Virus record (IMG/VR): IMGVR_UViG_3300003322_000067
Coordinates: 1-34,446 of that record
Source: a virus
Length of the DNA stretch: 34,446 bases
Direction: 5' to 3' (one strand)
Under the pieces are notes generated by a model. It did not search any database. It was given only the letters and a program-made list of their open reading frames with translations, and was not told where the DNA came from. Both the position numbers and the translations under genes were made by a program. This document shows, in pieces, positions 3,021 through 23,300 of this stretch (position 1 is its first letter; each line of letters opens with the position of its first letter).

Positions 3021-3206
3021 ATGAACAAGCAAAACATCAGAGCAACTATAGCTCAAAAATTTAAAGATTGTCCGTCATATTTAAGATAGTCAGCAAAGGC
3101 AGTAGCTAATTATTTTGGATGGAATGTTAAAACAGTTACATCAGTTAAAAATGAATTGACTAAGAACTTCTCTAGCTATAGAGAAGCTTATAGAGCAAAA
3201 GTCTAA
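3021..3206 (+). CDS. Small HTH-like protein with an in-frame TAG codon
   Basis: This 61-residue gene is absent from a standard-code reading because codon 23 (3087-3089) is TAG. With TAG read as an amino acid (Q assumed) the frame runs from ATG 3021 to TAA 3204-3206. The part after the TAG, SAKAVANYFGWNVKTVTSVKNEL, has the length and spacing of a helix-turn-helix. It aligns with the N-terminus of the phosphoesterase encoded downstream: IAQKF...P.YL...A..VA..FGW here, IVQKF...P.YL...A.LLA..WKC there. It therefore looks like a free-standing relative of that DNA-binding domain. It is bounded by a palindrome before the start and a perfect hairpin terminator after the stop, so it forms a one-gene unit. 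Role inferred: DNA-binding regulator. The alternative is a decayed gene, but similarity on both sides of the TAG argues against that. Confidence 0.7.
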
Positions 3207-3212
3207 CTTTCT

Positions 3213-3242
3213 AAGGTTGGTAGTGTCTTCTACCAACCTTTT
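3213..3242 (+). terminator. Intrinsic terminator, 11-bp perfect stem
   Basis: AAGGTTGGTAG (3213-3223) pairs perfectly with CTACCAACCTT (3230-3240) around a TGTCTT loop, followed by TTCT. It lies 7 bases after the stop of the TAG-containing HTH gene. The T run is short, so termination may be partial. Confidence 0.8.
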
Positions 3243-3260
3243 CTAATTTAAAAACATAAT

Positions 3261-4610
3261 ATGACAATAGAGGAAATAGTACAAAAATTTATACAAAGAC
3301 CAGTATACTTGACTAATGGAGCTGGATTATTAGCTAAATTATGGAAATGTTCTAGAGAGGATATAGTTAAGGCTAAAAGGATAGCTAAAGGTAAAAAAGT
3401 TCTAGATTCATCTAAAAAAGATAGTAAACCAGTAAGTAGTTCACCTAAAATGAGTATAGAACTACCTTTCTCTCCAGAAGATGTAATAGAAAGTGCTGGA
3501 AAGTTTAATACTGAAAGAGTAAATGTAGAAAAAGGAGAGAAAGAGTTATCTAAAGTATGTAGTACTTCTCCTAAAAGTGCAAAGGAAATAAAAGAACTAT
3601 TTACTATAGATGATGTTACTACTAGTTTATCTTCTTACTGGATTAAAGAACAATCTAATGGATTCTTAGTAAGTGCTTTAGTTAAAGTAATAACTAAAGA
3701 CTTCTATTCTAAAGAAGAACTTAAAGATAAACTTAAAGAGCTATTTCCTAAGGAACATATATTTGCTGTAAGGACTAACAAGATTGAAAGTACTCCTACT
3801 AAGGATACTTTAGTAATTTATATTTCTGATGATCATGTGGGTATGTTATTGAAAGAAGAGAAATCTATATATCAGAATTCTAATTCTGAAGAGAATTATA
3901 GTGAGAGATTAACAAAAATAGTAAAAGAAGTAATTAATCTTCCTTATACTTTTCAAGAAATACTTGTAGTATCCTTAGGAGATCAAATGAATGGTTATAA
4001 TCAATTTACTACAAGAGGTGGGCATATAGTGCCTTCTTTAAGTAATAAAGAGCAATTTGACCAATATGTTTCTGCTAGAAAGAAATTCTATGATCAGTTA
4101 TTTAATACAGGTAAAGCATCTGAATATGGTATATTAGAGGTTAACAATTCAAATCATAGTGGTAATGGATTTTCTTATATGGCTAATGAATATCTTAGAT
4201 TGTATATAGAAACTAAATATCCTGAAGTAGTTATAGAGAATTCAGAATCCTTTATTCAAGCAGCAGAAACTTATTCTGGACATATACTAATATTAGTTCA
4301 TGGTAAGGATGAACAACATCAGAAAGCTGGATTTCCTTTAAACTTAGATGCTAAAACTGAAGTATTCTTTACTGATCATATATTAGAGATGGGATTTAAT
4401 CCTAAGACTCAATTCTGTCATGTAGTTAAAGGAGATTTACATAAGTTTAATGAGAATGAAGGTAAGAACTTTAGATATGTTAATGTAGGTTCAATAGCTA
4501 ATGGCTCTTATTGGCAGGAAGCTAATTTTGGTAATTCTTCCCCAGGAGCTCTATTAGAGATATATGATTCAGCTTATAGGGAACCTATAAGACAAATAAT
4601 CAGGTTTTAA
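3261..4610 (+). CDS. Calcineurin-like metallophosphoesterase with N-terminal HTH
   Basis: This 449-residue protein is probably a two-metal phosphodiesterase or nuclease. The metallophosphoesterase signature is complete and in order: D190-D191-H192 (block DxH), G240-D241 (GDQMNG), N298-H299 (SNHSG), H347 (VHGKD) and G391-D392-L393-H394 (GDLH). These would bind the two metals. Residues 1-45 look like an HTH (QKFIQRPVYLTNGAGLLAKL), also found alone in the gene at 3021, so substrate or operator DNA binding is likely. A K/S-rich low-complexity linker (about 46-75) joins the parts. Promoter-distal signals include the terminator at 4631. The substrate is unknown: DNA end processing, cyclic nucleotide cleavage for anti-defence, or an RNA role are all open. 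Confidence 0.85.
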   Translation: MTIEEIVQKFIQRPVYLTNGAGLLAKLWKCSREDIVKAKRIAKGKKVLDSSKKDSKPVSSSPKMSIELPFSPEDVIESAGKFNTERVNVEKGEKELSKVCSTSPKSAKEIKELFTIDDVTTSLSSYWIKEQSNGFLVSALVKVITKDFYSKEELKDKLKELFPKEHIFAVRTNKIESTPTKDTLVIYISDDHVGMLLKEEKSIYQNSNSEENYSERLTKIVKEVINLPYTFQEILVVSLGDQMNGYNQFTTRGGHIVPSLSNKEQFDQYVSARKKFYDQLFNTGKASEYGILEVNNSNHSGNGFSYMANEYLRLYIETKYPEVVIENSESFIQAAETYSGHILILVHGKDEQHQKAGFPLNLDAKTEVFFTDHILEMGFNPKTQFCHVVKGDLHKFNENEGKNFRYVNVGSIANGSYWQEANFGNSSPGALLEIYDSAYREPIRQIIRF

Positions 4611-4630
4611 ATGTATTAAGTTATTTTTAT

Positions 4631-4658
4631 TGGGACTTAGATAGTCCCATTTTTTTTT
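4631..4658 (+). terminator. Intrinsic terminator with T-tract
   Basis: TGGGACT (4631-4637) pairs with AGTCCCA (4643-4649) around TAGAT, followed by nine T residues (4650-4658). It is a canonical rho-independent terminator 20 bases after the phosphoesterase stop, separating it from the tail gene cluster. Confidence 0.88.
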
Positions 4659-4669
4659 GTTATATTTAA
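4656..4669 (+). promoter_or_regulatory. TTTGT-TATATTTAA motif, candidate phage promoter
   Basis: Directly after the terminator, TTTGT is followed by TATATTTAA, nearly repeating 1842-1854. It lies 60 bases before the first gene of the tail cluster, a reasonable place for its promoter. Two copies in AT-rich DNA are weak evidence. Confidence 0.25.
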
Positions 4670-4696
4670 TTAGGACAATAAACTTATAAGATTTTA

Positions 4697-4715
4697 GTAA
4701 ACTTAATAAGTTTAC
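4697..4715. promoter_or_regulatory. Inverted repeat before the tail gene cluster
   Basis: GTAAACTT (4697-4704) and AAGTTTAC (4708-4715) form a perfect inverted repeat with a 3-base spacer, ending 14 bases before ATG 4730. Its placement mirrors the palindrome at 2988-3007 (13 bases before its ATG). It may be an operator or a leader hairpin setting mRNA stability or translation of the long downstream operon. Confidence 0.4.
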
Positions 4716-4729
4716 AATAAAAAAGTACT

Positions 4730-5281
4730 ATGGTTAATGATCTAAATGCCCCAAGATTTAACCCAAGAAAGTTTAGATATAGTGTAATATCTAAAGAACT
4801 TTGGTTAAGGTGGAAGAAAGAAACAGGACTTAAAAAAATACCTTATCAAGATTTTGCTTATATATGGAATCTAATAGGTAATAAGATTACACAGAAAGTT
4901 GTAGATGAGAGAGATGGTATAAAACTATCACATAATATAGGTGAAATATATGCAGGTTACACTATATCTAAAAAAACTAGGGTCAGTTCTAATGATCCTA
5001 TAATTTCTCAAGAAATAGGAAAACCATTTAAATATGAAAACTGGCATAGCAATAATAAGTATATAAAAATCATATTTGGTACAGCTAAGAGAAAGTATAT
5101 ATATGAAAATAGAAACCTATGGGGATTTATACCTCATAGAGACTTTGCTAGATCTATAGCTGCTCAAGCTAAAGAAACACCTGAAAGATATAAGTTGACA
5201 CAAGAAAAGAGGTACAATGTTACTGATCTAACTTCAGATCCAGAAATAATAAAAAAGATTCTTAAAAAAAGAAGAAAATGA
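4730..5281 (+). CDS. Basic head-tail junction candidate protein
   Basis: This 183-residue, strongly basic protein is of unassigned function. Motifs that can be seen are NAPRFNPRKFRYSVISKELW near the start, WNLIGNKITQKVVDERDGIKLSHNIGEIY in the middle and a lysine/arginine-rich end (KKILKKRRK). The short 'WNLIGN.I...V.ERDGI.L..NIG' segment reads like a structural phage protein that contacts nucleic acid, perhaps at the portal or connector. It opens the tail gene run after a terminator. Its TGA overlaps the next ATG in ATGA, implying coupled translation with the ring-type protein. No enzymatic motif is visible. Confidence 0.7.
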   Translation: MVNDLNAPRFNPRKFRYSVISKELWLRWKKETGLKKIPYQDFAYIWNLIGNKITQKVVDERDGIKLSHNIGEIYAGYTISKKTRVSSNDPIISQEIGKPFKYENWHSNNKYIKIIFGTAKRKYIYENRNLWGFIPHRDFARSIAAQAKETPERYKLTQEKRYNVTDLTSDPEIIKKILKKRRK

Positions 5282-5994
5282 GTGAATTCTTGCAAACCAG
5301 AGGTGGTTTAATATCTCAGGTTAGAACACAATTTAAAGAGCTAAATGCTGATTCTTCATTAACAGATAGACAAATATGGTCTGTTATTGATAAACATGCT
5401 AGATGGCTTATTAGCAGAGAAGCTAAGAATCTTCAGCTAATGAGCTATGATACTATATTTCAAACATTTAAGTGTGCTGAAGTAGAGGATGCTCCTGCTA
5501 TAGATGATTGCTGTGGAGTAAGAAGTAAGTGTCTTGTTAAAAGAACTAAAGATAAGTTACCAGATATGTATGAAGGTGAAGATGGTGTACTTATTAAAAC
5601 TGTTTTCACTATAGATGGATCCAAAGAATTTGTTCCTATTAAGATACAAGAATATATGAGAAAATTGGAGAATCCTGATAGTAGATTTGATAGAAGTTTA
5701 TATGTATATTTTAACAATGGATATCTTTACTTTCCTAAAGTTAATACTATAGATAAATCTATAGTTAACCAAACTCATCTTAGAAAAGTTATGATTAAAG
5801 CTATGTTTATAGATGAAGTAGTAAATCCTTGTGATAAAGATTCACCTCCCTGTATATCAGCATTTGATATGAAGATAAGATTTCCTAAAAAACTAGAGGG
5901 AGAAATTATGTCTCATGTATTCCAAGAGTTTGGAATATATAAACAAGTTCCTAATGACGCTCAAATTGACAAGAATGAAAACAGAAAAAATTAA
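5278..5994 (+). CDS. Putative tail ring / connector (P22 gp4-like) protein
   Basis: This is a 238-residue protein. The N-terminal 60 residues (TRGGLISQVRTQFKELNADSSLTDRQIWSVIDKHARWLISREAK) are the helical 'one helix for i, one for the wall' start typical of head-completion or tail-tubular adaptors. The C-terminal third has KVMIKAMFID followed by a proline/cysteine stretch and MKIRFPKKLEGEIMSHVFQEFGIYKQ, again as in P22 gp4/T7 gp11-like proteins, where a strand is followed by a lower helix. Cysteine pairs (DDCCGVRSKC, NPC...PPC) are notable and could bind metal or form disulfides. Size and place in the cluster match the ring proteins between portal and tail hub in crAss-like phages. The assignment rests on pattern, not on a search. 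Confidence 0.65.
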   Translation: MSEFLQTRGGLISQVRTQFKELNADSSLTDRQIWSVIDKHARWLISREAKNLQLMSYDTIFQTFKCAEVEDAPAIDDCCGVRSKCLVKRTKDKLPDMYEGEDGVLIKTVFTIDGSKEFVPIKIQEYMRKLENPDSRFDRSLYVYFNNGYLYFPKVNTIDKSIVNQTHLRKVMIKAMFIDEVVNPCDKDSPPCISAFDMKIRFPKKLEGEIMSHVFQEFGIYKQVPNDAQIDKNENRKN

Positions 5995-6091
5995 AAATCT
6001 TTTTAAAGCTATTCTAGACTGGATATTTGAGGTTTGTGAAGCTTTATCAGAAGCTTTTGAAAATGAGTTTAAACCCTATAAAAATGACTAA
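5975..6091 (+). CDS. 38-residue overlapping microprotein
   Basis: This short ORF overlaps the end of the ring-type gene by 20 bases and the ATG of the next gene by 8. It encodes a compact amphipathic helix rich in W, F, L, E and K (KIKNLFKAILDWIFEVCEALSEAFENEF). Such nested placement, with its TAA covering the next start, is what translational coupling looks like. It also fills the only gap between these genes. A short helix bound to a tail component is one possibility. It has no membrane segment long enough to be a holin. It could be non-coding by chance. Confidence 0.5.
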   Translation: MKTEKIKNLFKAILDWIFEVCEALSEAFENEFKPYKND

Positions 6092-6935
6092 TAAACACTT
6101 ATCATATAGAACCTTTGATTCTTTAATGGCTTCAGTAGAGTCTGATCTTACTAATATGTCTGATGAAGGTATTATAGACAGAGGTAAGTGCATTAAAATA
6201 GCTCAATATGTTAATGAGGACTTAGGACTAAAAATTAATAGTATACGTGAAACAGTAGTTGATATAGAAAACTATAGAGCTGAAATTCCTCTAGACATAT
6301 ATAAAATCAACTATGCACTTATATGTGGTTCTCCTATTTATGTGAGAGAACCTGGTGAAATATTCGGAACTCATACAGAATTTCATGAAGTCCTTCCTTG
6401 TGATAGTTGTCTTATACAAAATAATGCCTGTGTTAATGAATGTGGTAGTAAGTATTGGATATCTAGAAGATGGAAGGATAATATAGTACGTTATACTACT
6501 ATGTATCCTATTAGAATATCTGAAAGATCTAGAAAAATATGTACTAGTGGGTGTCCTAACTTAGGAGATAGGAATCTTTCTTATGAGGTTGATTTTAGTG
6601 AAGGATCTCTTACTACTAATATTAAAGAATGTAGTATCTATATAAATTATATAGATTCTATGATAGATAGTTCAGGAAATTTAATAATTCTTGATCATCC
6701 TAAAGTAAGACCTTATTATGAATATGCTATCAAAAAGCATATAATAGAGAATGCTTATGTTAATAAAGAGGGAGATTATATTCAAACACTTCAATGGTAT
6801 AAGAATGAACTTAGAGAGGCAAGAGATCAAGCTATTTCATTTGTTTCAGTTATTGAACCTTCAGAGATACATAAAGCTATAGAATATAACAGGTGGGTAA
6901 ATTATTATAAGTTTGTTAAACCAATTACTGGATAA
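6084..6935 (+). CDS. Putative tail ring / tube-associated structural protein, Cys-rich
   Basis: The protein is 283 residues from ATG 6084. The frame is open farther back to a TTG at 6027 and an ATG at 6063, but 6084 gives the natural N-terminus (MTNKHLSYRTFDSLMASVE) and couples to the microgene stop. The start resembles phage ring or connector proteins (SYRTFDSLMASVESDL...GIIDRGKCIKIAQYVNEDLGL). The middle has cysteine clusters (CDSC...CVNEC at about 106-121, CTSGC at about 153-157) that could hold a structural metal. No catalytic motif is seen. TAATG overlap with the next gene suggests co-translation. I place it with the tail ring proteins by size and context. Confidence 0.65.
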   Translation: MTNKHLSYRTFDSLMASVESDLTNMSDEGIIDRGKCIKIAQYVNEDLGLKINSIRETVVDIENYRAEIPLDIYKINYALICGSPIYVREPGEIFGTHTEFHEVLPCDSCLIQNNACVNECGSKYWISRRWKDNIVRYTTMYPIRISERSRKICTSGCPNLGDRNLSYEVDFSEGSLTTNIKECSIYINYIDSMIDSSGNLIILDHPKVRPYYEYAIKKHIIENAYVNKEGDYIQTLQWYKNELREARDQAISFVSVIEPSEIHKAIEYNRWVNYYKFVKPITG

Positions 6936-7312
6936 TGATAACAAAAGAATTCTTTATTGATATATATGATACTAATATAACTCTGGTATTATCAGATACT
7001 GCTAAGAAAACTTCTGAAAACATTAAAAAAATATACAAACTAGAGAAAATAAAGAGAGAAAAAGATGATGTACCTAAAGCTTGTGCTGGATATGTACTAG
7101 AGCCTAAAGGAAGAAAATATTATATTTTCTTATGTGAAGAATATGCTGATGAAAATACTATATCTCATGAGTGCTACCATTTAACAGAGTTTATAGGAGA
7201 CTATAATGGTTTATCAACAACTGATGCTAAAGAGGATAGAGCTTATCTTAATGGATATTTAAATATTAAGATAAGAAGATTACTTAAAGAAATGAATGTT
7301 ACTATAAAATGA
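6935..7312 (+). CDS. Small HExxH zinc-peptidase-like protein
   Basis: This 125-residue protein contains ISHECYHLTEFIGDY, with H78-E79-x-x-H82 in an aromatic helix, the zinc site of gluzincin/metzincin-type peptidases. A further acidic pair at E100-D101 (KEDRAYLNGYL), 18 residues after H82, is the right type for the third ligand. The upstream strand KYYIFLCEEYADENT would be the edge strand of the site. Small phage proteins of this sort are known beside tail genes and are presumed to process virion proteins or act on the host. It starts inside the stop of the previous gene and its TGA overlaps the ATG of the homing endonuclease. Confidence 0.75.
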   Translation: MITKEFFIDIYDTNITLVLSDTAKKTSENIKKIYKLEKIKREKDDVPKACAGYVLEPKGRKYYIFLCEEYADENTISHECYHLTEFIGDYNGLSTTDAKEDRAYLNGYLNIKIRRLLKEMNVTIK

Positions 7313-8145
7313 GTGATACACAAAATCCAAATATAAATACTAATGTCTTTAACAAAGGTTTAATATTTTCAATACCATTAGAATATTCAGGAGTATATAA
7401 AATTACTAATATAATTAATGGAAAATGTTATATTGGTAGTTCTCTTAACCTATATAATAGGTTGGGGGTACATAAAACTAGTCTAAAATATAATAGACAT
7501 GAAAATGAATATTTACAGAAAGCTTATAATAAATATGGAGTACAAAACTTTACAATAGAAATATTAGAAAAATATAAAAGAATTGAGGATGAAGATTTTA
7601 GAAATTTTCTCTTATTAAGAGAACAAATATTTTTTGATAGAATTTGTAATCTCTCAAATCAATAGAAAAGTTTATCTTATAACATAAGACCTTGTGCTTG
7701 GGATGCTACAGGAAGTTCTATAACTTCTTCTGCAAAGGTTAGAATAAAGGAAGAAAGATTAAAAAATCCTAGAAATACGAAAGTGTGTTACCAATATGAT
7801 GAGAAAGGTAATATAATAAAAGAGTATAGTAGTGTTGCAAGTTGTTGTAGAGAGACAAAATTCACACCTTCTAAGGTTCAAAGTGCTTGTAGAAATAATA
7901 CTTACTATAAAAATTATTTCTGGTCTTACATTAGAGATTATAAGTTTGAAAGTTTAGAGAATAATTCTAGATTATTAGCATATTTAAAGAGTAGAGGAAG
8001 AGAAGTATACATTAAAGAGACTGGAGAGAGGTTCATTAGTATATTAAGTCTATCAAAAAAGTACAATATTACTTTAAGTAAAATAAAATGGGCAATGAAG
8101 AACAATAAGTCAGTTGATAATCTTACAATATTTTATGGAAGATAA
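7309..8145 (+). CDS. GIY-YIG homing endonuclease with NUMOD domains and an in-frame TAG
   Basis: The protein is 278 residues once the TAG at codon 119 (7663-7665) is read through; under the standard code it would break into a 118-residue nuclease and an orphan fragment. Residues 26-90 are the GIY-YIG nuclease: GVY (28-30), YIG (41-43), R51 and E105. The frame then continues past the TAG into QKSLSYNIRPCAWDATG, a NUMOD3-type stretch. After that comes a NUMOD1-like DNA-binding repeat (VCYQYDEKGNIIKEYSSVAS) and a second such unit (YIKETGERFISILSLSKKY). The first 19 residues copy the start of the downstream tail protein (N..I.TN..NKGLI). That suggests insertion at the tail gene's 5' end. It starts in ATGA coupling with the previous gene and its end overlaps the tail gene start at 8135 by 11 bases. 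Confidence 0.9.
7351..7365 (+). repeat. 15-base direct repeat, left copy (homing endonuclease boundary)
   Basis: AACAAAGGTTTAATA (codons for NKGLI) occurs here and at 8168-8182, in the same codon phase of two different genes. The two copies mark the ends of the inferred endonuclease insertion. Confidence 0.75.
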
Positions 8146-8182
8146 TAGTATTAAAACAAATTTATTAAACAAAGGTTTAATA
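7366..8182 (+). mobile_element. Inferred homing endonuclease insertion in the tail gene
   Basis: This 817-base segment lies between two in-phase copies of the NKGLI-coding 15-mer. Removing it would fuse MSDTQNPNINTNVFNKGLI (encoded at 7309-7365) to the rest of the tail protein beginning TDLKEDLV, giving a continuous frame with an ATGA-coupled start. It lacks room for a group I intron core, so it behaves like an inserted free-standing endonuclease gene carrying a replacement 5' end for its target. Confidence 0.55.
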
Positions 8183-11100
8183 ACTGATTTAAAAGAAGAT
8201 CTTGTTTCTTCTGAAAGTTGGTCATATGCCAGAAATGCTACATTAAATAGTAATACTGGCCAACTAAACTTTATGCAGTTTGAACAAGGTACACTTAAAT
8301 GTGTACTACTACCTTATACTTTAATAGGCTGCACCAGAATTAAAGGTACTAGATGGGTTTTGTTTATGACTAACAATACTCATTCAGAAATAGGTATTTT
8401 TGATGAAGCTACATGTACATATACTAAAGTAGTAAATGATGATTGTTTAAACTTTAATAAAGGCTACCCTATACAAGCTAAATTTAGAGAATTAAGTGAT
8501 TGTACAGAAGTAGTATATTGGACTGACGCTTATAATCCTAGAAGATATTTGAATCTTCAAAATGTACCTTATAAGTTTACTACAAAAGATGATGTATGTA
8601 AAACTAAAGAATTTACAGAAGATCTTGATTGTGATAGACTTTTAGTAGATAAGAATATAACTATTCCTAAGTTAAATGTATTTAAAAGTTCATCAGGACA
8701 ACTTAGAAATGGACAGTACTCCTTTGCTGCTGCATATAGTATTAATAAACAAAGAATATCTGATTTTTATAGTCTTACACAGCCTATAAAAATATGGACA
8801 CATATAAACATTGGACAGAGTATAACTGTTCAATTAAGTAATTTAGATAGAGATTTTGATGAGTACCAACTAGCTGTAGTATATACTGTAGATAATGTAA
8901 CATACTATAAGAGCTTAGGATTCTTTCAAATAGGAAGTACTTCACATATTGTATCTAATGTTAATAGACCAGAATATGATTCTATTACTTCTTCTGAACT
9001 TATAATTTCAAGACCTAAATATCCTTATGCTGACCTAATAGAGTCTAATGACCTATATCTTATGTGGGCAGGTCTTAAAACTCAACCTGATCTTAATTAT
9101 CAACTTCAAGCTATGAAAATAGTTCCTGAATATGTAGTTAATAGATTAGATGCTGATGCTTACAGAAAAGGAGAACAGAAGCAAGGTTATATGGGTGATG
9201 AAAGATATGCATTTGGTATCCAATGGTTATTTGATAATGGTGAATGGTCAAGTGTATTTCATATACCTGGTATCAAACCAGAAGCTTCATTTATAGGACC
9301 TGCTAGTGGAGGAGATTTATTTGAAGATGCTGTGGTTGAGAATAGAATTATACCAACATTTGAAGTATATGAAACTGCTAAAGCTCCTACTTATAATGAT
9401 AATACAAGCACAGGAGTAGTGGCTACTGGAACTATGGGATATTGGCACAGTTCAGAATTATATCCTAACAGACCAGACTTATTTGGTGATAGTGCATGTA
9501 CACCTATTAGACACCACAAGTTTCCTGATGATAGCTTAGTAGCTAAGTTTTCAAATGGAGGAAAATATATTAACATCCTTGGAATAAGATTTAAGAATAT
9601 AGAACATCCTAGAGATGTAAATGGTAATGATATACCTAATATCCAAGGATATAGAATTTTAAGAAGTAATAGAGAAGGTCAAGAAAGTGTTATAGCAAAA
9701 GGAGTACTCACTAATGTAAGAAAGTATAAAGAAAATAATGAAGAGGTACTTTATGCTAACTATCCTTATAATGACCTAAGGGAAGATACATTTATATCTT
9801 CTAAACAGACAGAATCTAAATTTGGAGAAAAGAACTTTCAACCTCTTAAAGATTATTCAAAGACAGAATTTAATTTCTATTCACCTGAAACACAATTTAA
9901 TAGAATTGGTTTAGGTAATGAACTTAAAATATATTCACACCTAAGTGCTAAAACTGATGGATTCTTTGATTATGTACATAATCATCCAAAACAAAAGATG
10001 ATTACAGAGGCTGCTTTATGGTTTTCTATAGTAGTTGGTGTTTTAGATGGCTACTTAGAGACTAGAGGTAAAAGATGTTATGTAAGAAGAAATAGAAGTA
10101 GTGCTAATAGTGCTGACTTTGTTACTAATGCTAAATTTAAAGGTAATGGACTAGGTGGTATAACAGATAGTGATAGTGATACTACTGAAAGTACTACAAT
10201 TGAAATAACTAATAATAATATTAAAACTCAAGAACAAACTCAAGAAGAACAATTATGTGATTCTATTGCTACAGGTATTAACTCTGCTACTTTCAAAGAT
10301 GGACCTGTAAAGTTCTTATTTAAAGCAGTTCAGACTCTTGCTAAAGCAGGTATGTTTGTATACTTTGCTCTTAAAGCTGCTCAAGATACTTATGATATAA
10401 TCTATAATTTTTCTCCTTGGCAGAAATATGCATTACAATATAATTCTCATGCATTTTTTACTCAGAGTAAAGCTGCTCCTAAAGACTTTAGAAGAAGAAG
10501 AATAGAGTACTATCAGTACTTATCAGGAGGTTTAAATACTGTAGAAGGTAAGACTTTTAATAACTATAATAGAGAAGAGAGTGTATATCTAAGAGTAAAT
10601 AAGGAGCTTAGAGATCCTGAAACAATAGATAAATCTAGAAATACATTAAATGACTTAAAAGCTTGTAAGAAGATATTTGATAAAATAGTTACAGATGCCA
10701 CTGTATACTATGGTGCTATTAAAAGATATATACCTAATCAATACGGTACCTTAGAAAGTATTAACTACTTAGATACTGGATTTCTAGATACTACTTTAAA
10801 GAATGATCCTAATAACCCTAATACAAAGTATAACTCTGAACCTATATTTGGTGGTGATGTTCTTGTCACTAGAATGACAGTAAAAAGAACACATCATTTT
10901 TTCTCTCAATTTACACATAATGTACCTGATGGATTTATATATAATTATAGAAACTTTAGAAATATAGGGTATCCTAGATATTGGATGGATAGTACACCTT
11001 ATGATGTATTTGGTGTAGTTAAATTTCCTCCTACTAAGGCTAAAACACCTAAGAATAGTTATAATCTTGATTGTGGAAGTAATAAAAATGAAATTACTGT

Positions 11101-12769
11101 TGTAAAGGATAAATATTTTTATCTATTTAACTCAGGTGTACTAGATTTCTTTGTAGAAAGTCCTTATAATCTTGAATTTAGAGATTGGAAAGATGAATAT
11201 CCTAATTTCTATTCTTCATCAAATACAAACCTTAAAGATCTTTTTAGAGCTGATAGAATAGAAGCTGAGGAAGATAAAATCTTTGATAATACTTATTTAA
11301 GACAGTTAACAGAAATAGCTGCTTTTCAACAGTCTTTAGATTTTAGCATAGATAAAGAACTCTCATGTAATTCTTATATAAGAAACCATGTAATATATTC
11401 TATGCCTGCTAACCAAGAGCAAAAAGGTGATAGTTGGTTAACTTACTTACCTCTTAATAGACATATATTTAGTATAGGTGACTTTGGTAATCTAACTACT
11501 ATGAAAGCTATTGATAATCAAAGAATTATGTTCTTATTTGATAGGGCTGCCCCTTATATAACTCCTGGTAGAGATCAATTACAATTAGATGGTTCTGGTA
11601 GTTCTATTACTTTAGGCAATGGAAACTTATTTGAAAGAACTCCTATTCCTATTGCTTATACAGATATGTATTATGGAGGTAGTCAGTCTAAATGGGCATT
11701 TATAAATACACAATATGGAGCTTATTATCCTTCTCAAGATCAAGGAAGATTATTTCAGTTTGGTGGAGGACTTAATGAAATTGGCATAAATGGTATGAGC
11801 TTTTGGTTGAAGAATAATATGCCATCTCATTTACTTAAAGATTTTCCTAATTATCCTTATAAGGATAATCCTATTAAAGGTAATGGATTTCAAATAGCCT
11901 TTGATAATCACTTAGAAATATTATACATCACTAAGAAGGATTATAAAGTAGTAGAAAAGTATAGAGAGAATATAAGCTTTAATACATCTAGAGATACTTT
12001 TATGCGTAATTCTACTCCAATAGAACTTACTAATTCTAAATACTTTATAGATTGTTCTTGGACACTATCTTATGATCCTAAGCAAAAGGTATTTGTTAGT
12101 TTTCATGACTGGCATCCAGATTGGATTATGCAATCAGATAAACATTTCTTTAGTGTAAAAGATAAGACTATATGGAAGCATAATCAGAATTGTAAAGAGT
12201 TTTGTAAATATTATGGAGTACAGTATCCATTTCAAGTAGAACCTATAGTAACTAATGGACAGAATGTATTTATACTTAGAAGTTTAGAATTTCAAGCAGA
12301 ATGTGGATTCTATCATCATAATTGTAGTGATTTTCACACATTACTAGATGAAACATTTGATTATTTAAGAGTATATAATGCTGAACAGGATAGTGGACTA
12401 CTTAAACTTCATTTACAGTCTAAGAAAGATATGAGACAGTTAACTGCATTTCCTTATTATGATCCAATAAATGAATATATAAATATACTTTATGAAAAAT
12501 CTGAACAAAAGTTTAGAATAAATCAATTTGATGATATTATAAAGGATAGAGGAGAGTTTACACACAATGCTTATCCAATATATAGTGTTCATCCTAATGG
12601 TTATATAAGAGAGTTTAATCCTAATGCAATAGATTATTCTAAACCTACTCAGCTTAGAAAGAAGTTTAGAAATACTTGGCACAAAGTACTTTTAACTAAA
12701 GAAAATCCTGGAGATAAGAATATTATAATGAAGTTCCTTAATAGCAAGCAATTAATATCTATAAGATGA
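8135..12769 (+). CDS. Large tail protein (crAss-like stabilization/muzzle type)
   Basis: The protein is 1,544 residues from ATG 8135; a TTG at 8114 is less likely. The start TNLLNKGLITDLKEDLVSSE followed by SWSYARNATLNSNTGQ matches the N-terminus I associate with the long tail 'stabilization' or muzzle proteins of crAss-like phages. The first 350 residues are strand-rich (GCTRIKGTRWVLFMTNN, VVYWTDAYNPRRYLNL), suggesting a propeller. Around 622-642 and 725-752 are hydrophobic stretches on either side of a Thr/Asp/Gln-rich linker (about 675-705). They may be internal helices rather than membrane spans. The C-terminal half has many W/Y/H-rich motifs (FVSFHDWHPDWIM) typical of receptor or assembly surfaces. 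The ATGA end couples it to the M15 peptidase gene. Role inferred: tail nozzle component. Confidence 0.75.
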   Translation: MEDNSIKTNLLNKGLITDLKEDLVSSESWSYARNATLNSNTGQLNFMQFEQGTLKCVLLPYTLIGCTRIKGTRWVLFMTNNTHSEIGIFDEATCTYTKVVNDDCLNFNKGYPIQAKFRELSDCTEVVYWTDAYNPRRYLNLQNVPYKFTTKDDVCKTKEFTEDLDCDRLLVDKNITIPKLNVFKSSSGQLRNGQYSFAAAYSINKQRISDFYSLTQPIKIWTHINIGQSITVQLSNLDRDFDEYQLAVVYTVDNVTYYKSLGFFQIGSTSHIVSNVNRPEYDSITSSELIISRPKYPYADLIESNDLYLMWAGLKTQPDLNYQLQAMKIVPEYVVNRLDADAYRKGEQKQGYMGDERYAFGIQWLFDNGEWSSVFHIPGIKPEASFIGPASGGDLFEDAVVENRIIPTFEVYETAKAPTYNDNTSTGVVATGTMGYWHSSELYPNRPDLFGDSACTPIRHHKFPDDSLVAKFSNGGKYINILGIRFKNIEHPRDVNGNDIPNIQGYRILRSNREGQESVIAKGVLTNVRKYKENNEEVLYANYPYNDLREDTFISSKQTESKFGEKNFQPLKDYSKTEFNFYSPETQFNRIGLGNELKIYSHLSAKTDGFFDYVHNHPKQKMITEAALWFSIVVGVLDGYLETRGKRCYVRRNRSSANSADFVTNAKFKGNGLGGITDSDSDTTESTTIEITNNNIKTQEQTQEEQLCDSIATGINSATFKDGPVKFLFKAVQTLAKAGMFVYFALKAAQDTYDIIYNFSPWQKYALQYNSHAFFTQSKAAPKDFRRRRIEYYQYLSGGLNTVEGKTFNNYNREESVYLRVNKELRDPETIDKSRNTLNDLKACKKIFDKIVTDATVYYGAIKRYIPNQYGTLESINYLDTGFLDTTLKNDPNNPNTKYNSEPIFGGDVLVTRMTVKRTHHFFSQFTHNVPDGFIYNYRNFRNIGYPRYWMDSTPYDVFGVVKFPPTKAKTPKNSYNLDCGSNKNEITVVKDKYFYLFNSGVLDFFVESPYNLEFRDWKDEYPNFYSSSNTNLKDLFRADRIEAEEDKIFDNTYLRQLTEIAAFQQSLDFSIDKELSCNSYIRNHVIYSMPANQEQKGDSWLTYLPLNRHIFSIGDFGNLTTMKAIDNQRIMFLFDRAAPYITPGRDQLQLDGSGSSITLGNGNLFERTPIPIAYTDMYYGGSQSKWAFINTQYGAYYPSQDQGRLFQFGGGLNEIGINGMSFWLKNNMPSHLLKDFPNYPYKDNPIKGNGFQIAFDNHLEILYITKKDYKVVEKYRENISFNTSRDTFMRNSTPIELTNSKYFIDCSWTLSYDPKQKVFVSFHDWHPDWIMQSDKHFFSVKDKTIWKHNQNCKEFCKYYGVQYPFQVEPIVTNGQNVFILRSLEFQAECGFYHHNCSDFHTLLDETFDYLRVYNAEQDSGLLKLHLQSKKDMRQLTAFPYYDPINEYINILYEKSEQKFRINQFDDIIKDRGEFTHNAYPIYSVHPNGYIREFNPNAIDYSKPTQLRKKFRNTWHKVLLTKENPGDKNIIMKFLNSKQLISIR
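8168..8182 (+). repeat. 15-base direct repeat, right copy
   Basis: Second copy of AACAAAGGTTTAATA, coding NKGLI (residues 12-16) in the present tail protein. Confidence 0.75.
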
Positions 12770-15411
12770 TTAGAAAAAAGAAATATGGTATAGGAGGTAT
12801 TAGTGATAAAGAAGCTTTACCTTATAGTAGAGACTCTAATTATAGAGCTAGTACTACATATGGTCCTAACTGGGATAATATTCTTACCTCTCAAGTTTTG
12901 ATGAGTGGATTAACAGCTATATCTAATGCTTCTGAGAATTCTAGAGAAAATGCTGTTCTTAGATTTAATCAACAGCAATTTAATCCTTTAAATTATTTAC
13001 CTCAAACAGCTAATATAAGTCACCAAGCTTTATATGGTATGGGTGAAGGTGGAGAATTTGATGATCAAGAAGATTTAGATGCTTACAACCTTATATTTGG
13101 TGAAGACACACCCACACCCACACCTTCTGATCCTATAAAAGAATCTGAGAAAGCTATAGATGATACTTTTGAGACTCCTATGAACTTTTATAATCCAAGA
13201 ACTACTTCTAGGTGGCAGATGCCAAGCTTAGATTCTCCTATAGAAGAAAGTTCCTTTCATATAAAAACTAAGGGAAGTCAAGTAAATCTTGATTTAGTAC
13301 CAGGAATGAAACAAGCTCTTAGTTCTTTATCTAATATGTTTCCAGGATTAGTAGTTACTTCTGGTAAGGATAGTAAGCATATGGAAGGAAGTAGGCATTA
13401 TGAGGGTAAAGCAATAGATATTGGAGCTAATAGTTCTGATAGAAAAGCTTATGAAGCATTTAAAAACTTTATAAATACTCCTGAAGGATCTAAATTTAAA
13501 CAACAATATGGACTTGAGGATATTATAGATGAGGGCAACCATGTACATTTAGAATTACCTAAATGGGATAAAGGTGGTATACACATTAAATCAGAAAATA
13601 GAGGCAAGTTTACAGCTTATAAAAAGAGAACAGGTAAGACTACAGAAGAAGCTTTACATTCTAAAGATCCTCATGTAAGACAGATGGCTAATTTTGCTAA
13701 AAATGCTAAAAAGTGGCATCATGAAGAAGGTGGTTATGTAGAAGGTCAAGAATATGACTTAGATCCTAGAGAAGTACAAGCTCTAATAGATCAAGGATAT
13801 GAAATAGAGTCTTTTGATAAAGGGGGTAAAGTAGAAAGAATGATACCTACTCCTGAAGATAAAGCTAATCATTCTGAAGAGACTTATAATCCTAATATAG
13901 ATTATTCTAAGAAGAAGATAGTAGCAGATAAAAACTTAAGAGATAGAAGACAATATCAAGCTACTCACCCTACTACATATTTTAAAGCTGCTCCTATACA
14001 AACATTAAAAGAGCAAGAAGCTAATGCTAAAAAGTTAACACAATTACAAGAGGAATTTGTAGATCAGTCTAGTGGTAATTATAGTTTAGTAAATGGTAGA
14101 ATAGTAGCTAATCCTAAGAGACAAGCTTTTAATAACTTTACTGAAAAAGTAGCTGAAAGTCCTATAGGTAAAGCTATTGAATATACTGGCTATATAGATA
14201 CTGGTATAGGATTAGGTAAATGGGCTACTAAAGCTGCTCCAGTTGTAGAAAGAAGTGCTTTAAAAGCAGATGAATTCTTAGATAAATATATTGAAACATC
14301 ATACAATGATTATGGAGAAAAGCAATCTAGTATACATGCAGGAAAATTTGCAGATTTTCTTAAAAGAAATCCAGATATAGATATTAATAAAATAAAAGAC
14401 AGTGGATTTAGGAATATAGCTATTGAGCTAAGAGATATGGGAGAGTTACTTAATGAAGGTGATGATTTTGCTAGATATAGATGGAATTCTAAATCACCTA
14501 CAACTATTGATAATCTTAGGTTTGCAGCTAAAGATATTATTGATAGATTTATCAATGATCCATTATCAAAAGTTATAGAAAAAGGTAAAGAGGTCTATCA
14601 TACTAGTTTTCCTATTAGTGATATTAATAAGATTAATATGAACAACTACAAGTATTATATAGATAAGTCCTTTGCTGAATTTGGTGCAAATAATAGTGGA
14701 GCCTACTCATTTAAAGCACCTTTAGATAAATATTTTGCAAAATTTGAAGATAGTAAAAGACTTTCTCAATACTTTAATGGTTATGATCAATTTAATTTTG
14801 CTAATGAAATGAAAGATCTTCCTTCTAAAGAAAATATTGCTAAAGTAATTAAGCAGTTAGATAAAGGAAAAGATAGAATGTTACTTATGAATAAAGTAGA
14901 AGGTATACCACTCGATGAGTTAACTCATTCTCAAGTAAGAAAAATACCTGATACTGCTTATGAGCAATTCTTCAATGATGCTAAAGAAATAAAGAAAAAA
15001 GGCTTTGGAGTAGATTTTATGGGAAATAATATATTATATAATCCAACTAAGAAAGAATTTTCTATGTTTGATTTATCTCCTCAGAAACTAGCTAATCAGA
15101 GATGGAAAGAGGATGTAATGGCTGGTGTAACATCTGATAGATCACCAGAAGATGCAGCTAAGGCACTACAAATAGCTATTAGAGATAAAATGTTTGAGAG
15201 TATAGATAACCAACTTTGGAGTCTTCCTTCAAGCATAAGGTCTAATCCAAGGTTACAGAAAGTGATTAAAGGTACTACTGAAAAAGTACTAGATAACATG
15301 TCTCAAGCATTTGATAGAGTAAATCCTTACAAGGAAGGAGGAACTTATAATATTTCTAGGAAAGAACTACAGAACTTAATCAATCAAGGTTATAAATTTG
15401 ATTTAATATGA
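12766..15411 (+). CDS. Virion protein with M15-type peptidase and kinase-like C-terminal domain
   Basis: This is an 881-residue protein. Residues about 175-265 form an M15/VanY-type D,D-peptidase: H211 and D218 in SRHYEGKAIDIG, then H259-V-H261 in NHVHLEL. H211, D218 and H261 are the expected zinc ligands, implying cutting of peptidoglycan cross-links during entry. Residues about 280-350 carry KRTGKTTEEALHSKDPHVRQ and the turn LDPREVQALIDQGYEI; a shorter copy (ISRKELQNLINQGYKF) ends the protein. Residues about 600-775 fit a kinase fold: K659 (YFAKFE), E681, a hinge-like KVEGIPL (710-716), D750-xxxx-N755 (VDFMGNNIL) and D769 (MFDL). The spacings are close to those of protein kinases (K to D 91, D to N 5, N to D 14). 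A TPTPTP linker lies near residues 114-119. The gene is ATGA-coupled on both sides. The kinase assignment is an inference from motif spacing. Confidence 0.8.
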   Translation: MIRKKKYGIGGISDKEALPYSRDSNYRASTTYGPNWDNILTSQVLMSGLTAISNASENSRENAVLRFNQQQFNPLNYLPQTANISHQALYGMGEGGEFDDQEDLDAYNLIFGEDTPTPTPSDPIKESEKAIDDTFETPMNFYNPRTTSRWQMPSLDSPIEESSFHIKTKGSQVNLDLVPGMKQALSSLSNMFPGLVVTSGKDSKHMEGSRHYEGKAIDIGANSSDRKAYEAFKNFINTPEGSKFKQQYGLEDIIDEGNHVHLELPKWDKGGIHIKSENRGKFTAYKKRTGKTTEEALHSKDPHVRQMANFAKNAKKWHHEEGGYVEGQEYDLDPREVQALIDQGYEIESFDKGGKVERMIPTPEDKANHSEETYNPNIDYSKKKIVADKNLRDRRQYQATHPTTYFKAAPIQTLKEQEANAKKLTQLQEEFVDQSSGNYSLVNGRIVANPKRQAFNNFTEKVAESPIGKAIEYTGYIDTGIGLGKWATKAAPVVERSALKADEFLDKYIETSYNDYGEKQSSIHAGKFADFLKRNPDIDINKIKDSGFRNIAIELRDMGELLNEGDDFARYRWNSKSPTTIDNLRFAAKDIIDRFINDPLSKVIEKGKEVYHTSFPISDINKINMNNYKYYIDKSFAEFGANNSGAYSFKAPLDKYFAKFEDSKRLSQYFNGYDQFNFANEMKDLPSKENIAKVIKQLDKGKDRMLLMNKVEGIPLDELTHSQVRKIPDTAYEQFFNDAKEIKKKGFGVDFMGNNILYNPTKKEFSMFDLSPQKLANQRWKEDVMAGVTSDRSPEDAAKALQIAIRDKMFESIDNQLWSLPSSIRSNPRLQKVIKGTTEKVLDNMSQAFDRVNPYKEGGTYNISRKELQNLINQGYKFDLI

Positions 15412-17387
15412 AAATAAAAATAAAAAGTGTACCTACAAGTAAAGGAGAACAGTTCTTCAATACTATGACACAGTTTCCTAATCTCTATCATAATGTTACT
15501 AGTGCAGGTTTAACAGAATCTGATACTACTGGTACTAATGATGAGCAGATTAGTGATACTCTTAAACCTATAGAAAGAGAAAATGCCAATATTGAAGCTG
15601 AGATAGGAGAAGTGTTAGTTAGACCTGGACTAGCTGGTATGTATAAAATAGGTGGTAAGACTCATGAGAAAGGTGGTACACCTCTAGCAGCAGATGAAGG
15701 TTCTTTTATCTTTTCTAATGATAGAGATTTAGCTTTTAATAAGAAAGAACTTAAGTCTTTAGGAATAGATACTAATTTTAAAAGAGGAGAAGCTACTCCA
15801 GCTAAAGTTCTTCTTAAGAAAGTCAAACCTAAAGACTAGTATAATATGTTGAATCTTTTAACTAGTGATAGTACAGATGAAATTACTAAAACATCTGCTG
15901 CTCTTATGTTAGATAAACATCAGAAAGATATAGGTGAAGTAGCTTTCTTACAAGAATCTAAGAAAGAAGATAAGATGCCAGACTTTGCTTTACCTCCTAA
16001 TAATCCTGATATGGATGCTATAGATGATGTAGCTAATCAATATATGAAATATGGTGGTAATGTTTTTGATATTGGTGGATGGACAGGTGATAAATTTTCT
16101 GGTAGAAAGAATGCTACTAAATACTCAGATCAGGATTGGAGAAGGTTTGCTAAAGATGTTGGATATACAGGAACTACTAATAAAGGATTTCAGAAATATC
16201 TTTATGGATATAATAAAGGTCAATTTAAACCTCTTATAGATAAACTTCATAAAGATTACTTACCTGGACCTAATGGTGGTATGTTTGATGATAAATTAGG
16301 GTATAGGTGGGATGCTGTACTAGATAATTTCTATGGTACAATACCAGCTTTAGGTGGAGATGCTATAGGACCTGATCCTGGTGCTCCAACTGGTTATTCT
16401 CCTAATATAGATGGTCCAATAAAAGAACCTACCTATTATCCTAAAGGAATGGAAAGTCCTAAAGAAAAAGTAAATAAGATAGGATGGCAAGGCTATGACT
16501 TTGCTCCTAATGGTATGGAAGCTTTGACTGCTGTATTACCTGGTTTACAATCTTTAGCTTTAGAGAACTTTTATGCTGCTCCTTTCTTAAAACCCAAGAA
16601 TACTATTAGATTAGATAGAATTAATTTAGAAGATGCTAAGCAAAGAGTTCAAGAAAGTGCTAATCTAGGTACTAGAGAGGCTTATGATAATGCTCCTGCT
16701 AAAGTAGCTCAAAGCATAGCTGGTAATATAAGAGGTCAAGCTAATAATCAAATAGTATCTTTAGATAATCAAGAAGAAAATACAAATAGTCAAATAGGTA
16801 ATCAGGAAAGTCAAATCAATTTTAATACTGAGCTTGATAGACAAAATTGGAATACACAACAATTTGCTCAAACATATGAGAAAAATAATCTAACTTTACA
16901 AAGAAGAAATGAGCTTAGAGCTAATGGACTTACTCAAAGTATTAATAACTTAGGAACTCTTACAACAAATCTTGAGAACTTAAGTAACTATGCAACTATG
17001 ATGAGTCTACCTTATGTAACAGGAGAAAAGAATGAAGATGGTAGTGATAAAACATTTAGAGGAAAAGATGGTAAATTATATCAAAGACAAGGAGTACCTT
17101 TTGGATTTGATGGTAGAAGAAGACCTAACTTTAATCCTTCATTTGGCTCATTAGATACTTTTGGAGTTAGTATGAATGCTAGTTCTATACAAAGCCAAGA
17201 ACTTGTAGGTATGGCTAATGATTATTTGAAGCAAGCTTATAAATCAGGAGACCCTAAATCTATTGCTGCTGCAGCTATGTTTTATAAAGCTATTCTAGGA
17301 GGTGCAGGTAGAGGTAGTTCACCTATAGAAAATGCAAATTCTATGTATCAAAATATGCTTTCACTATTTCAACAAAGAACACCTTAA
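15408..17387 (+). CDS. Internal virion (cargo-type) protein with an in-frame TAG
   Basis: The protein is 659 residues when the TAG at codon 144 (15837-15839) is read as an amino acid. Under the standard code it would be two ORFs (143 and 513 residues) in the same frame, separated only by TAG and two codons. The second has no ribosome binding site. The N-terminal part has a conserved-looking block: EAEIGEVLVRPGL, then YKIGGKTHEKGGTPL, then EGSFIFSND and LGI. The central part is G/N/P-rich. Residues about 400-530 are helical and Q/N-rich (QEENTNSQIGNQESQI, RQNWNTQQFAQTYEKNNL), and the C-terminal 60 residues are Ala/Met-rich helix. It starts in ATGA coupling with the peptidase gene and precedes another large helical protein. 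This fits an injected cargo or internal scaffold role; no enzyme motif is seen. Confidence 0.78.
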
Positions 17388-20364: not shown

Positions 20365-23300
20365 ATGCCAGATATTTTAAGTGGATTTAATCCCTCAGGA
20401 CTTGGACAATTAGAAGGAACTCTTAATGAACCTACTAGTAAAGTTATAGACTTTGCTGAGGTAGTTGCATGGGAACCTGATACAACTCCTGATTTAGCTA
20501 ATAATAAGGACGCACAAAGCTATATTAGATTTAAATCAATGTTTGATAATCCTTTAGAGGGAGCTACATTAAGACCTACTGAACCTTTGCCTTTTAATAC
20601 TAATGAAGTAAAGAAACTACAGAATTCTGGCGTATATGATAAACTAGGATATAATAGATGGTCTAATGAGGAAAGAAGATATAATCCAGAAACATCTAAT
20701 TGGAGTGATGTATGGAATTCTACTGTTAAATTCTTAGATAAAACATGGAGTTCATTTAGTTCTTTTTGGGAACAGAATGCTGATACTTTTAAATCTATAA
20801 GTGATTCAGAATCTTCATCTTGGATGAATTCTAATACTATGGATAGAATAGCTCATGAACAAAAAATGGAAGAGTTGTTTCCTACTTTTACTGATCCTCA
20901 AAAAAGACATTGGTATTCATTTATTCCATTTACCACTGGTCATGGAGATTTCTTAGAGACTTTTGTTCCTCAATTAGGGTTTACTGTTGGTACTATGTTA
21001 GGTGCTATAGCTGAAAATGTAGTTATAGATGCTTTAACTGGTGGTACTGCTGCTCCTATAGAAGCTAGTAACTCTATAAGAAAGATTTATACTGCTCTCA
21101 AAGAATTTTCTACATTAGGTACTAAAGCTAGGTTATTAGGTAATGCTTCTAAAAATGTAGCCATTAGAGGGTTAGATGTAGGACTGCATGGTTGGTCTAT
21201 GTGGAACACTGCTGCTTCAGAAGCTTCTTTAGAAGCTGGTATGATGTATAATCAAACTAAGCAAGAAATATTAGATCAATATCAAAAAATACACGGACAT
21301 CCTGCATATGGTACTGATTTAGAGAATATTGAGAGTAATGTTAAGAAAGCTGGAGATGATACTTTTGGATGGAATATGGCTATCCTCTTACCATCCAATT
21401 ATATAATGTTCAGAAATGCATTACTTCCTTCTTTTGCAAGAAAAGCTGCCTTAGAAGAAAGTGTAAAGGGCTATGCATTTAAACCTACTGTAGATGGCTT
21501 TGTAGAGGTTGTCAAAGAGTCTTCTAAGGGATTTAAAGATCTCTGGAAGATGGGTAATATGGGTAAAATAAAAGCCTTAGGTACTATAGTTGACCTTGAA
21601 AGGTGGAAGTTCTTAACAGAAGGTTTTGAAGAAAGTTCTCAAGCATATGTAAGTAATTATTTTGGTTCTAGAAGTAAGAGTAGCTACTTTAATAAATTAA
21701 ATAAATCTCATGCTGATGCTATAGATTATGTATTCTCAAGTGATGGTTTACAAGAGTTTATAGGTGGTGCTATGGGTGGATTTATATTTAATAAATCTGG
21801 TCATATTCTTAGAAGATTTTCTACTAAAGAAGTAGAAAAAAAAGATGAGAATGGAGAATTAACTGGTGTAGACTTTAAAGATAATTTCTTAGCTAGAATA
21901 GTTGGTTCTTCTGATAGAGCTAAAGATAGACAGAGGAATATAAGAGCTAATATTATAATGGACTCCCTTAATAAGCAGAATGCTCTTGATCTCTTTAAGG
22001 AAGAAGGCATTATTAATATGCTTGCTAATAGTAATACTGGAGGTAAGATGGAGGCTTACTATAAGAATAATGATATATTCTCTATGGAGAACTTACATAG
22101 CAACCAGTTAAATAAATTCTTATATTCAGGGCTTGTACTTGGTAAATTAGACTTAAGAATTAATCAACTAAAGAAAATAGCTGAATTAAGTGATGAAGAT
22201 ATTGCCAAAGAATTAAGTCTACCCAATCCTGTAGAAGGTCTACAACAAAGTATAAAGGAGTTTGCTAATCATTTAGAGTCAAGAGTTCCTGCATTTAAGC
22301 AAATTTATGAAGAAGAAAAACATAGATATACTGAACAGATAAATAACCTTACATTAAAGTCTCTACAATCTGATAAAGAGCATAGAGATTATGTAAATGA
22401 AATAGTAAAAAAGTATAATCTTGAATCTCCTGAAGATATACCAGGTATATATGAAGAGACTATTGATAAAATTATAGCTCTTAAAGAGAAGTATGATAAC
22501 TTAAGTAAATCTAGTAGTACTGATGAAGATTTACAAAAAGTCACAGATATTACTATAGAGAGAGCCAAGTTAGAAGAAGATGAAAAGTATAAAGAGTTTA
22601 ATAAATTAAATGAGTTAAAAGATAAATCATTTAAAGATTCTCTATTTTTATTAGGTGTAACAGAAGCTAGAAAAGCTGCAACTTTTGCTGCTCATAATAT
22701 GTTACTAGATAAAGATAGAATGAGTGATACTTTTAGAGAGCTTAAGAAAGGTCCTTTTATTACTGCTGGTATATCTGATCTTGTTACCCTTAAAGGGGTG
22801 CAAGAAAAACTTAAAGTACTTAGAGCAGAAGATGAGGGTAATATTCCTGCTATAAAAGTAACACTACCTGATGAAAGAGCTCTAGCAGTTAAAAAACAAA
22901 TTAAATCTCTTGAAAAATTAGAAAAACAGTATCAGAATAGAGATAGTATAAACTACAGTACTGCTGCTAAAAATATATTGGAGTATCTAAAAAATAGTTA
23001 CAGTGCTGAAGAATTTAATTCTGAAGAAGACAAACAAGAGTATTTAAACAAATTGTCTAATGTAGTCAAACTTGAAGATAGAAATATAGCCAATTTAGAG
23101 CTCTATAACTTACTTACTGATTCTGATAAGATGATGAATGATGAGAGTTATGCTCATTATTTCTCTACTAAAGCTTTCAAATTTATTAATGATATAGGAG
23201 AACATATATTAAATGATTTTGAAAAGCCTCAAGAGGAAGAACTAGAAGAGCCTTTAGAAAAACCTCTCACAAGTAATGCTGAGGTTAATGATATTCTATC

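Follow-up and report, generated by a model that had tools for sequence, protein, structure and literature searches.

In the present study, we analysed in full a viral record of 34,446 bases (the window; 30% G+C, with the main genes all on the + strand), which is a fragment of an uncultured crAss-like phage (Crassvirales) and represents a late module. Single in-frame TAG codons were observed directly at 3087-3089, 7663-7665 and 15837-15839, one in each of three ORFs. The best explanation, to which we give slightly better than an even chance, was incipient, low-density amber recoding, in which UAG would be translated as a sense codon at a handful of positions in the late genes. The relevant features of the window were as follows.

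3021..3206, + strand: 61-aa ORF with the TAG read, its first half weakly similar to the N-terminus of the gene at 3261
3087..3089, + strand: in-frame TAG, codon 23 of ORF 3021-3206, which has no later start codon
7309..8145, + strand: GIY-YIG homing-endonuclease-like gene, 278 aa with the TAG read (Pfam PF01541)
7663..7665, + strand: in-frame TAG, codon 119 of the GIY-YIG gene, with the family-invariant Y124, N125 and R127 downstream
8135..12769, + strand: muzzle protein gene, homologue of phiCrAss001 gp44 (Pfam PF25731, crAss_MUZ; PDB 7qok gp44 by profile)
15408..17387, + strand: crAss-like structural protein gene, 659 aa with the TAG read, two genes downstream of the muzzle gene
15837..15839, + strand: in-frame TAG, codon 144 of 659 in the structural protein gene, the strongest of the three sites
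20365..30555, + strand: giant late protein, 3,396 aa, with no in-frame TAG (4,065 aa in the orthologue of the sister phage G001)

The phage was placed in the Crassvirales because 8135-12769 is the muzzle protein gene. Its neighbours encode a lysozyme, a homologue of the ring protein and giant late proteins, and the virion-protein homologues (muzzle, ring protein and giant late proteins) follow the conserved order. No TerL, portal or major capsid protein gene was identified within the 34-kb record. The product of 20365-30555 combines in one chain two motifs, HEAWH at residues 1623-1627 (metalloprotease-like) and DFDID at residues 3111-3115 (RNA-polymerase-like), and the latter suggests that the protein is an RNA polymerase. 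At positions 3-1382, the window encodes a right-handed beta-helix protein with a C-terminal Por_Secre_tail (type IX secretion sorting) domain. This domain is unusual for a phage, pointing to a probable Bacteroidota host.

The structural protein gene was compared with its homologues. The first-pass annotation had proposed aligning homologues at the TAG columns, and of the 85 relatives aligned across the 15837 column, none terminated there and all had a residue at that position. The orthologue in the sister phage is one uninterrupted ORF (G001:118282-120333). Conserved residues, given with the share of the relatives' commonest residue, were found before the TAG (T130 99%, P131, A132 100%) and after it (N145 87%, D157 94%, A164, Q182 98%, E183 100%, K186 100%). 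In the AlphaFold model, for which Gln was placed at the TAG and 49 sequences were aligned, residues 51-185 formed one compact domain (pLDDT mostly >90). Residue 144 lies within a predicted helix of this domain (141-152; pLDDT block means 92-96), and a stop at this residue would therefore be expected to cut the domain, removing most of two helices. The fold search with this domain gave no PDB match at E <= 0.001. Judged from the related phages, at least one TAG-bearing gene must be read through, or its protein would be broken. An in-frame ATG is present at 15846, 6 nt past the TAG (TAG TAT AAT ATG, 15837-15848), and re-initiation of a split protein is therefore possible. The 15837 column, which lies in an indel-containing region, is occupied by L, I or V in most relatives and by Tyr in the sister when read without gaps, so the homologues gave no support for glutamine at this position.

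The product of the GIY-YIG gene has homologues in crAss and Flavobacterium phages, and its match to PHROG 314 covers residues 26-221, across the TAG. The frame is continuous in four phage homologues, and the window retains the Y, N and R that are invariant shortly past the TAG; the TAG column itself falls in a variable loop. The proteins of relatives were thus seen to continue across two of the three sites. After the 7663 TAG, 39 codons pass without a start codon, the next start being at 7783, and 159 codons run without a frameshift or a further stop, with the coding signal retained. Homing endonucleases are mobile genes that often decay, and the presence of GIY-YIG elements varies among the relatives; decay of a mobile gene is possible at 7309-8145. 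For the 61-aa ORF at 3021-3206, no homologue was found in phage records. Paralogy with the N-terminus of the gene at 3261 was considered and rejected: it involved the pre-TAG half only (shuffle P ~0.005), and the post-TAG part alone showed no similarity to that gene. As a recoding site, 3087 is weak. An in-frame TAG in a gene that is uninterrupted in homologues, a feature of code 15, was therefore found at 15837, with supportive results at 7663 and weak ones at 3087. The equal weight formerly given to the three sites did not hold, as 15837 was the strongest and no homologue convincingly spanned the TAG at 3087.

The recount of in-frame TAGs gave three in the 11,311 codons of the window (0.27 per 1,000 codons), in agreement with the earlier figure of three in about 11,000; neither the muzzle gene, with 1,544 codons, nor the 3,396-codon gene contains one. 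At each of the three sites, the codon log-odds, which measure the in-frame coding signal, were still positive beyond the TAG. Under random one-step nonsense substitutions with the window's codon usage, TAA accounts for about half of the changes to stop, and the probability that all three interruptions are TAG was 0.010-0.019. In the conserved genes of the relatives, 13 in-frame stops were found among 373,937 aligned residues, of which 3 were TAG and 10 sit in one poorly aligned gene. These counts predict ~0.4 in the window, giving a P(>=3) of ~0.008, a rough value since two of the window's three TAG genes lie outside the relatives' conserved set. Above chance are the homology across 15837 and 7663 and, more weakly, the all-three-TAG pattern.

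Two other quantities were rejected as evidence. The first was the absence of TAG stops, from which recoding had been argued. The count of zero TAG ends was correct, although the recount gave 18 ends (TAA 14, TGA 4) rather than 19 (15 and 4). TAG ends 102 of 1,728 late-module genes of the relatives (5.9%), and 0/18 against this background has P=0.33; likewise, zero TAG ends occur in 33 of the 91 relative loci having at least 12 genes. The missing TAG stops are thus expected by chance, and the argument from stop usage carries no weight. The second was the number of ORFs merged by reading TAG, as unrecoded relatives give comparable counts (0.29 per 1,000 codons in the window vs 0.16-1.57), mostly from gene junctions and false upstream extensions. 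The coding density of the window rose from 0.926 to 0.931 once TAG was read, short of the gain of at least 5-10% that serves as the operational criterion for code 15 (PMC10879173).

Single-protein scans of IMG/VR found no close relatives. Muzzle-protein profile scans found ~140 relatives and just one near sister, L056, whose record is G001. In the tree of 154 muzzle proteins, the window and L056/G001 branched deeply as a pair, separate from all other sequences, with a support of 100. G001 comprises 155,657 bases, its muzzle protein is 48% identical to that of the window, and its synteny covers most of the window. No second copy of the window's phage was found by exact-pattern searches or by a near-identity search in phage records. 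Two other crAss-like contigs contain single in-frame TAGs: L053 has one in place of a conserved Trp (NQFWD) close to the end of its muzzle protein (L053:14540-14542), and L068 has one within a seemingly single coherent fibre-like protein (VETG*VGFGLNSNT; L068:424-426).

Suppressor tRNAs were sought in the window, in 23 muzzle relatives and in W04, a recoded gut phage; the latter 24 phage genomes were scanned whole or to within ~1 kb. The 34,446-base window contained no tRNA gene and no Rfam RNA (theta ribozymes or others), and the only Rfam RNAs in G001:60001-100000 were tRNAs. Apart from G001, nine of the 23 muzzle relatives carry tRNAs; a tRNA with a CTA anticodon was observed in one of the 24 genomes, namely G001, the closest known relative.

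G001:83117-83190: CTA-anticodon tRNA (Rfam tRNA, 55 bits), with two acceptor-stem mismatches

The tRNAs nearest to it are a relative's tRNA-Trp(CCA) and tRNA-Lys(CTT), and the ten nearest do not include G001's own tRNA-Gln. The wording "recent, low-level" of the first-pass annotation fits the findings; the alternative term "regulated" was neither supported nor contradicted. In G001, TAG is an ordinary stop codon and ends 23 of 171 ORFs (~13%), with no evident tandem back-up. No convincing in-frame TAG was found in G001, where the extensions after TAG resemble the ones that follow TAA or TGA, and its TAG stops did not differ significantly between early and late genes (1/25 vs 19/123, P=0.20). 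On the minus strand of G001, a 73-aa ORF (36486-36707) contains a GGQ motif (PYGGQQVN). Its similarity to the release-factor domain PF00472 was weak (28.1 bits against a cut-off of 35), and the PF00472 search gave no match in the other 28 relatives.

Amber recoding is established in crAss-like phages as code 15, with TAG read as Gln (PMC7886860), including by proteomics (PMC9523058). The window resembles these phages in being a Crassvirales late module with a TAG within a structural gene that relatives carry in one piece, and differs from them in that it shows no coding-density gain, gives no support for glutamine and is a fragment without a suppressor tRNA. The human-gut crAss-like phage W04 (L244-L250, MT835492.1) is fully recoded, with 601 in-frame TAGs and a coding density that increases from 0.44 to 0.87; no CTA tRNA was detected in its record by ARAGORN. 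Its 19.4 TAGs per 1,000 codons indicate that amber decoding is feasible in Crassvirales, and the window, with 0.27, has ~70-fold fewer. Incipient TAG accumulation was described in the beta-group crAss-like genome OFRY01000050, which has its own TAG-suppressor tRNA (PMC7886860). As in that genome, TAGs are beginning to appear in conserved genes that are uninterrupted in relatives, but OFRY01000050 carries the suppressor tRNA in the same genome, whereas in the present case a CTA tRNA was found in the sister phage alone. Zeta crAss-like phages have been reported to carry CTA tRNAs without amber suppression, and their TAG stops are rare and soon backed by another stop (PMC12386605). G001 is like these phages in having a CTA tRNA with no in-frame TAG detected, and unlike them in using TAG as a stop in ~13% of its ORFs with no evident tandem back-up. 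G001 matches the "suppressor without reassignment" state of crAss-like phages (PMC7886860, PMC12386605). The window fits a known kind, amber recoding in crAss-like phages, at its sparse end, where an incipient case has already been described (PMC7886860). Because its coding density stays below the criterion and its homologues do not support glutamine, we did not file the window as a code-15 phage, and we claim more narrowly that it behaves like a case of sparse amber recoding.

The same observations could arise under the standard code from three unrelated local causes: gene fission in the structural gene, with re-initiation at ATG 15846 yielding two coupled polypeptides; a decaying homing endonuclease, in which the GIY-YIG gene is a recent pseudogene; and a doubtful ORF, with 3021-3206 decayed or spurious. 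We regard this main rival as quite possible, though somewhat below an even chance. The TAG TAT AAT ATG arrangement resembles those at true gene junctions in relatives, GIY-YIG elements are mobile and variably present, the 61-aa ORF lacks a homologue, and isolated in-frame stops are known in relatives, such as the muzzle TAG of L053. The small number of sites, three with one of them weak, also speaks against recoding, as does the finding that G001 has a CTA tRNA with two acceptor-stem mismatches yet uses TAG as an ordinary stop. However, fission would split a helix of a conserved domain that is kept whole in 85 of 85 relatives, the endonuclease has no frameshift or other stop in its 159 post-TAG codons and retains its coding signal, and three of three lesions being TAG has a probability of only 0.01-0.02.

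Sequencing or assembly errors in the metagenomic contig are improbable as the source of the TAGs. Other contigs do show isolated in-frame stops at a low rate, and the searches gave no second copy for comparison, but random substitutions to stop would favour TAA, and three errors that are all TAG, without a frameshift, in conserved genes of 34 kb are unlikely. Very improbable is programmed readthrough at specific sites, in which near-cognate host tRNAs would act in place of a suppressor tRNA: the few sites in separate genes would suit it, but the stop contexts (AGA TAG TCA, CAA TAG AAA and GAC TAG TAT) all differ, and no readthrough-promoting context is shared. The first-pass proposal of amino-acid decoding of TAG stood as the best single explanation, carried mainly by a structural gene that is continuous in 85 aligned relatives and has its TAG mid-domain, although the argument from stop usage, glutamine insertion and equal site weight found no support.

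Under incipient amber recoding, the most likely agent is an amber suppressor tRNA with a CTA anticodon, encoded by the phage or its host, which would compete with release factor 1; this competition and the late timing are suggested by analogy with the known system. The TAGs may be only beginning to accumulate, leaving few genes with one, and the coding density under the standard code would therefore be hardly affected. A suppressor tRNA of the phage's own, the readthrough itself, its late-specificity and the identity of the inserted amino acid are the parts of this explanation that we infer. Tentatively, and on the unlikely side, the window and its sister may represent two early steps of a code switch in one clade, with the CTA tRNA appearing first in a lineage that keeps TAG as a normal stop (G001), and a few TAGs then entering the late genes of a relative ahead of any global change. 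If sparse amber recoding is confirmed, the window would be a further case of stop-codon reassignment near its start, and the order of tRNA first and TAGs later would become testable. It would also show that sparse recoding escapes the standard screens by coding density and has to be sought by aligning homologues across single stops, and low-density recoding could exceed its reported frequency.
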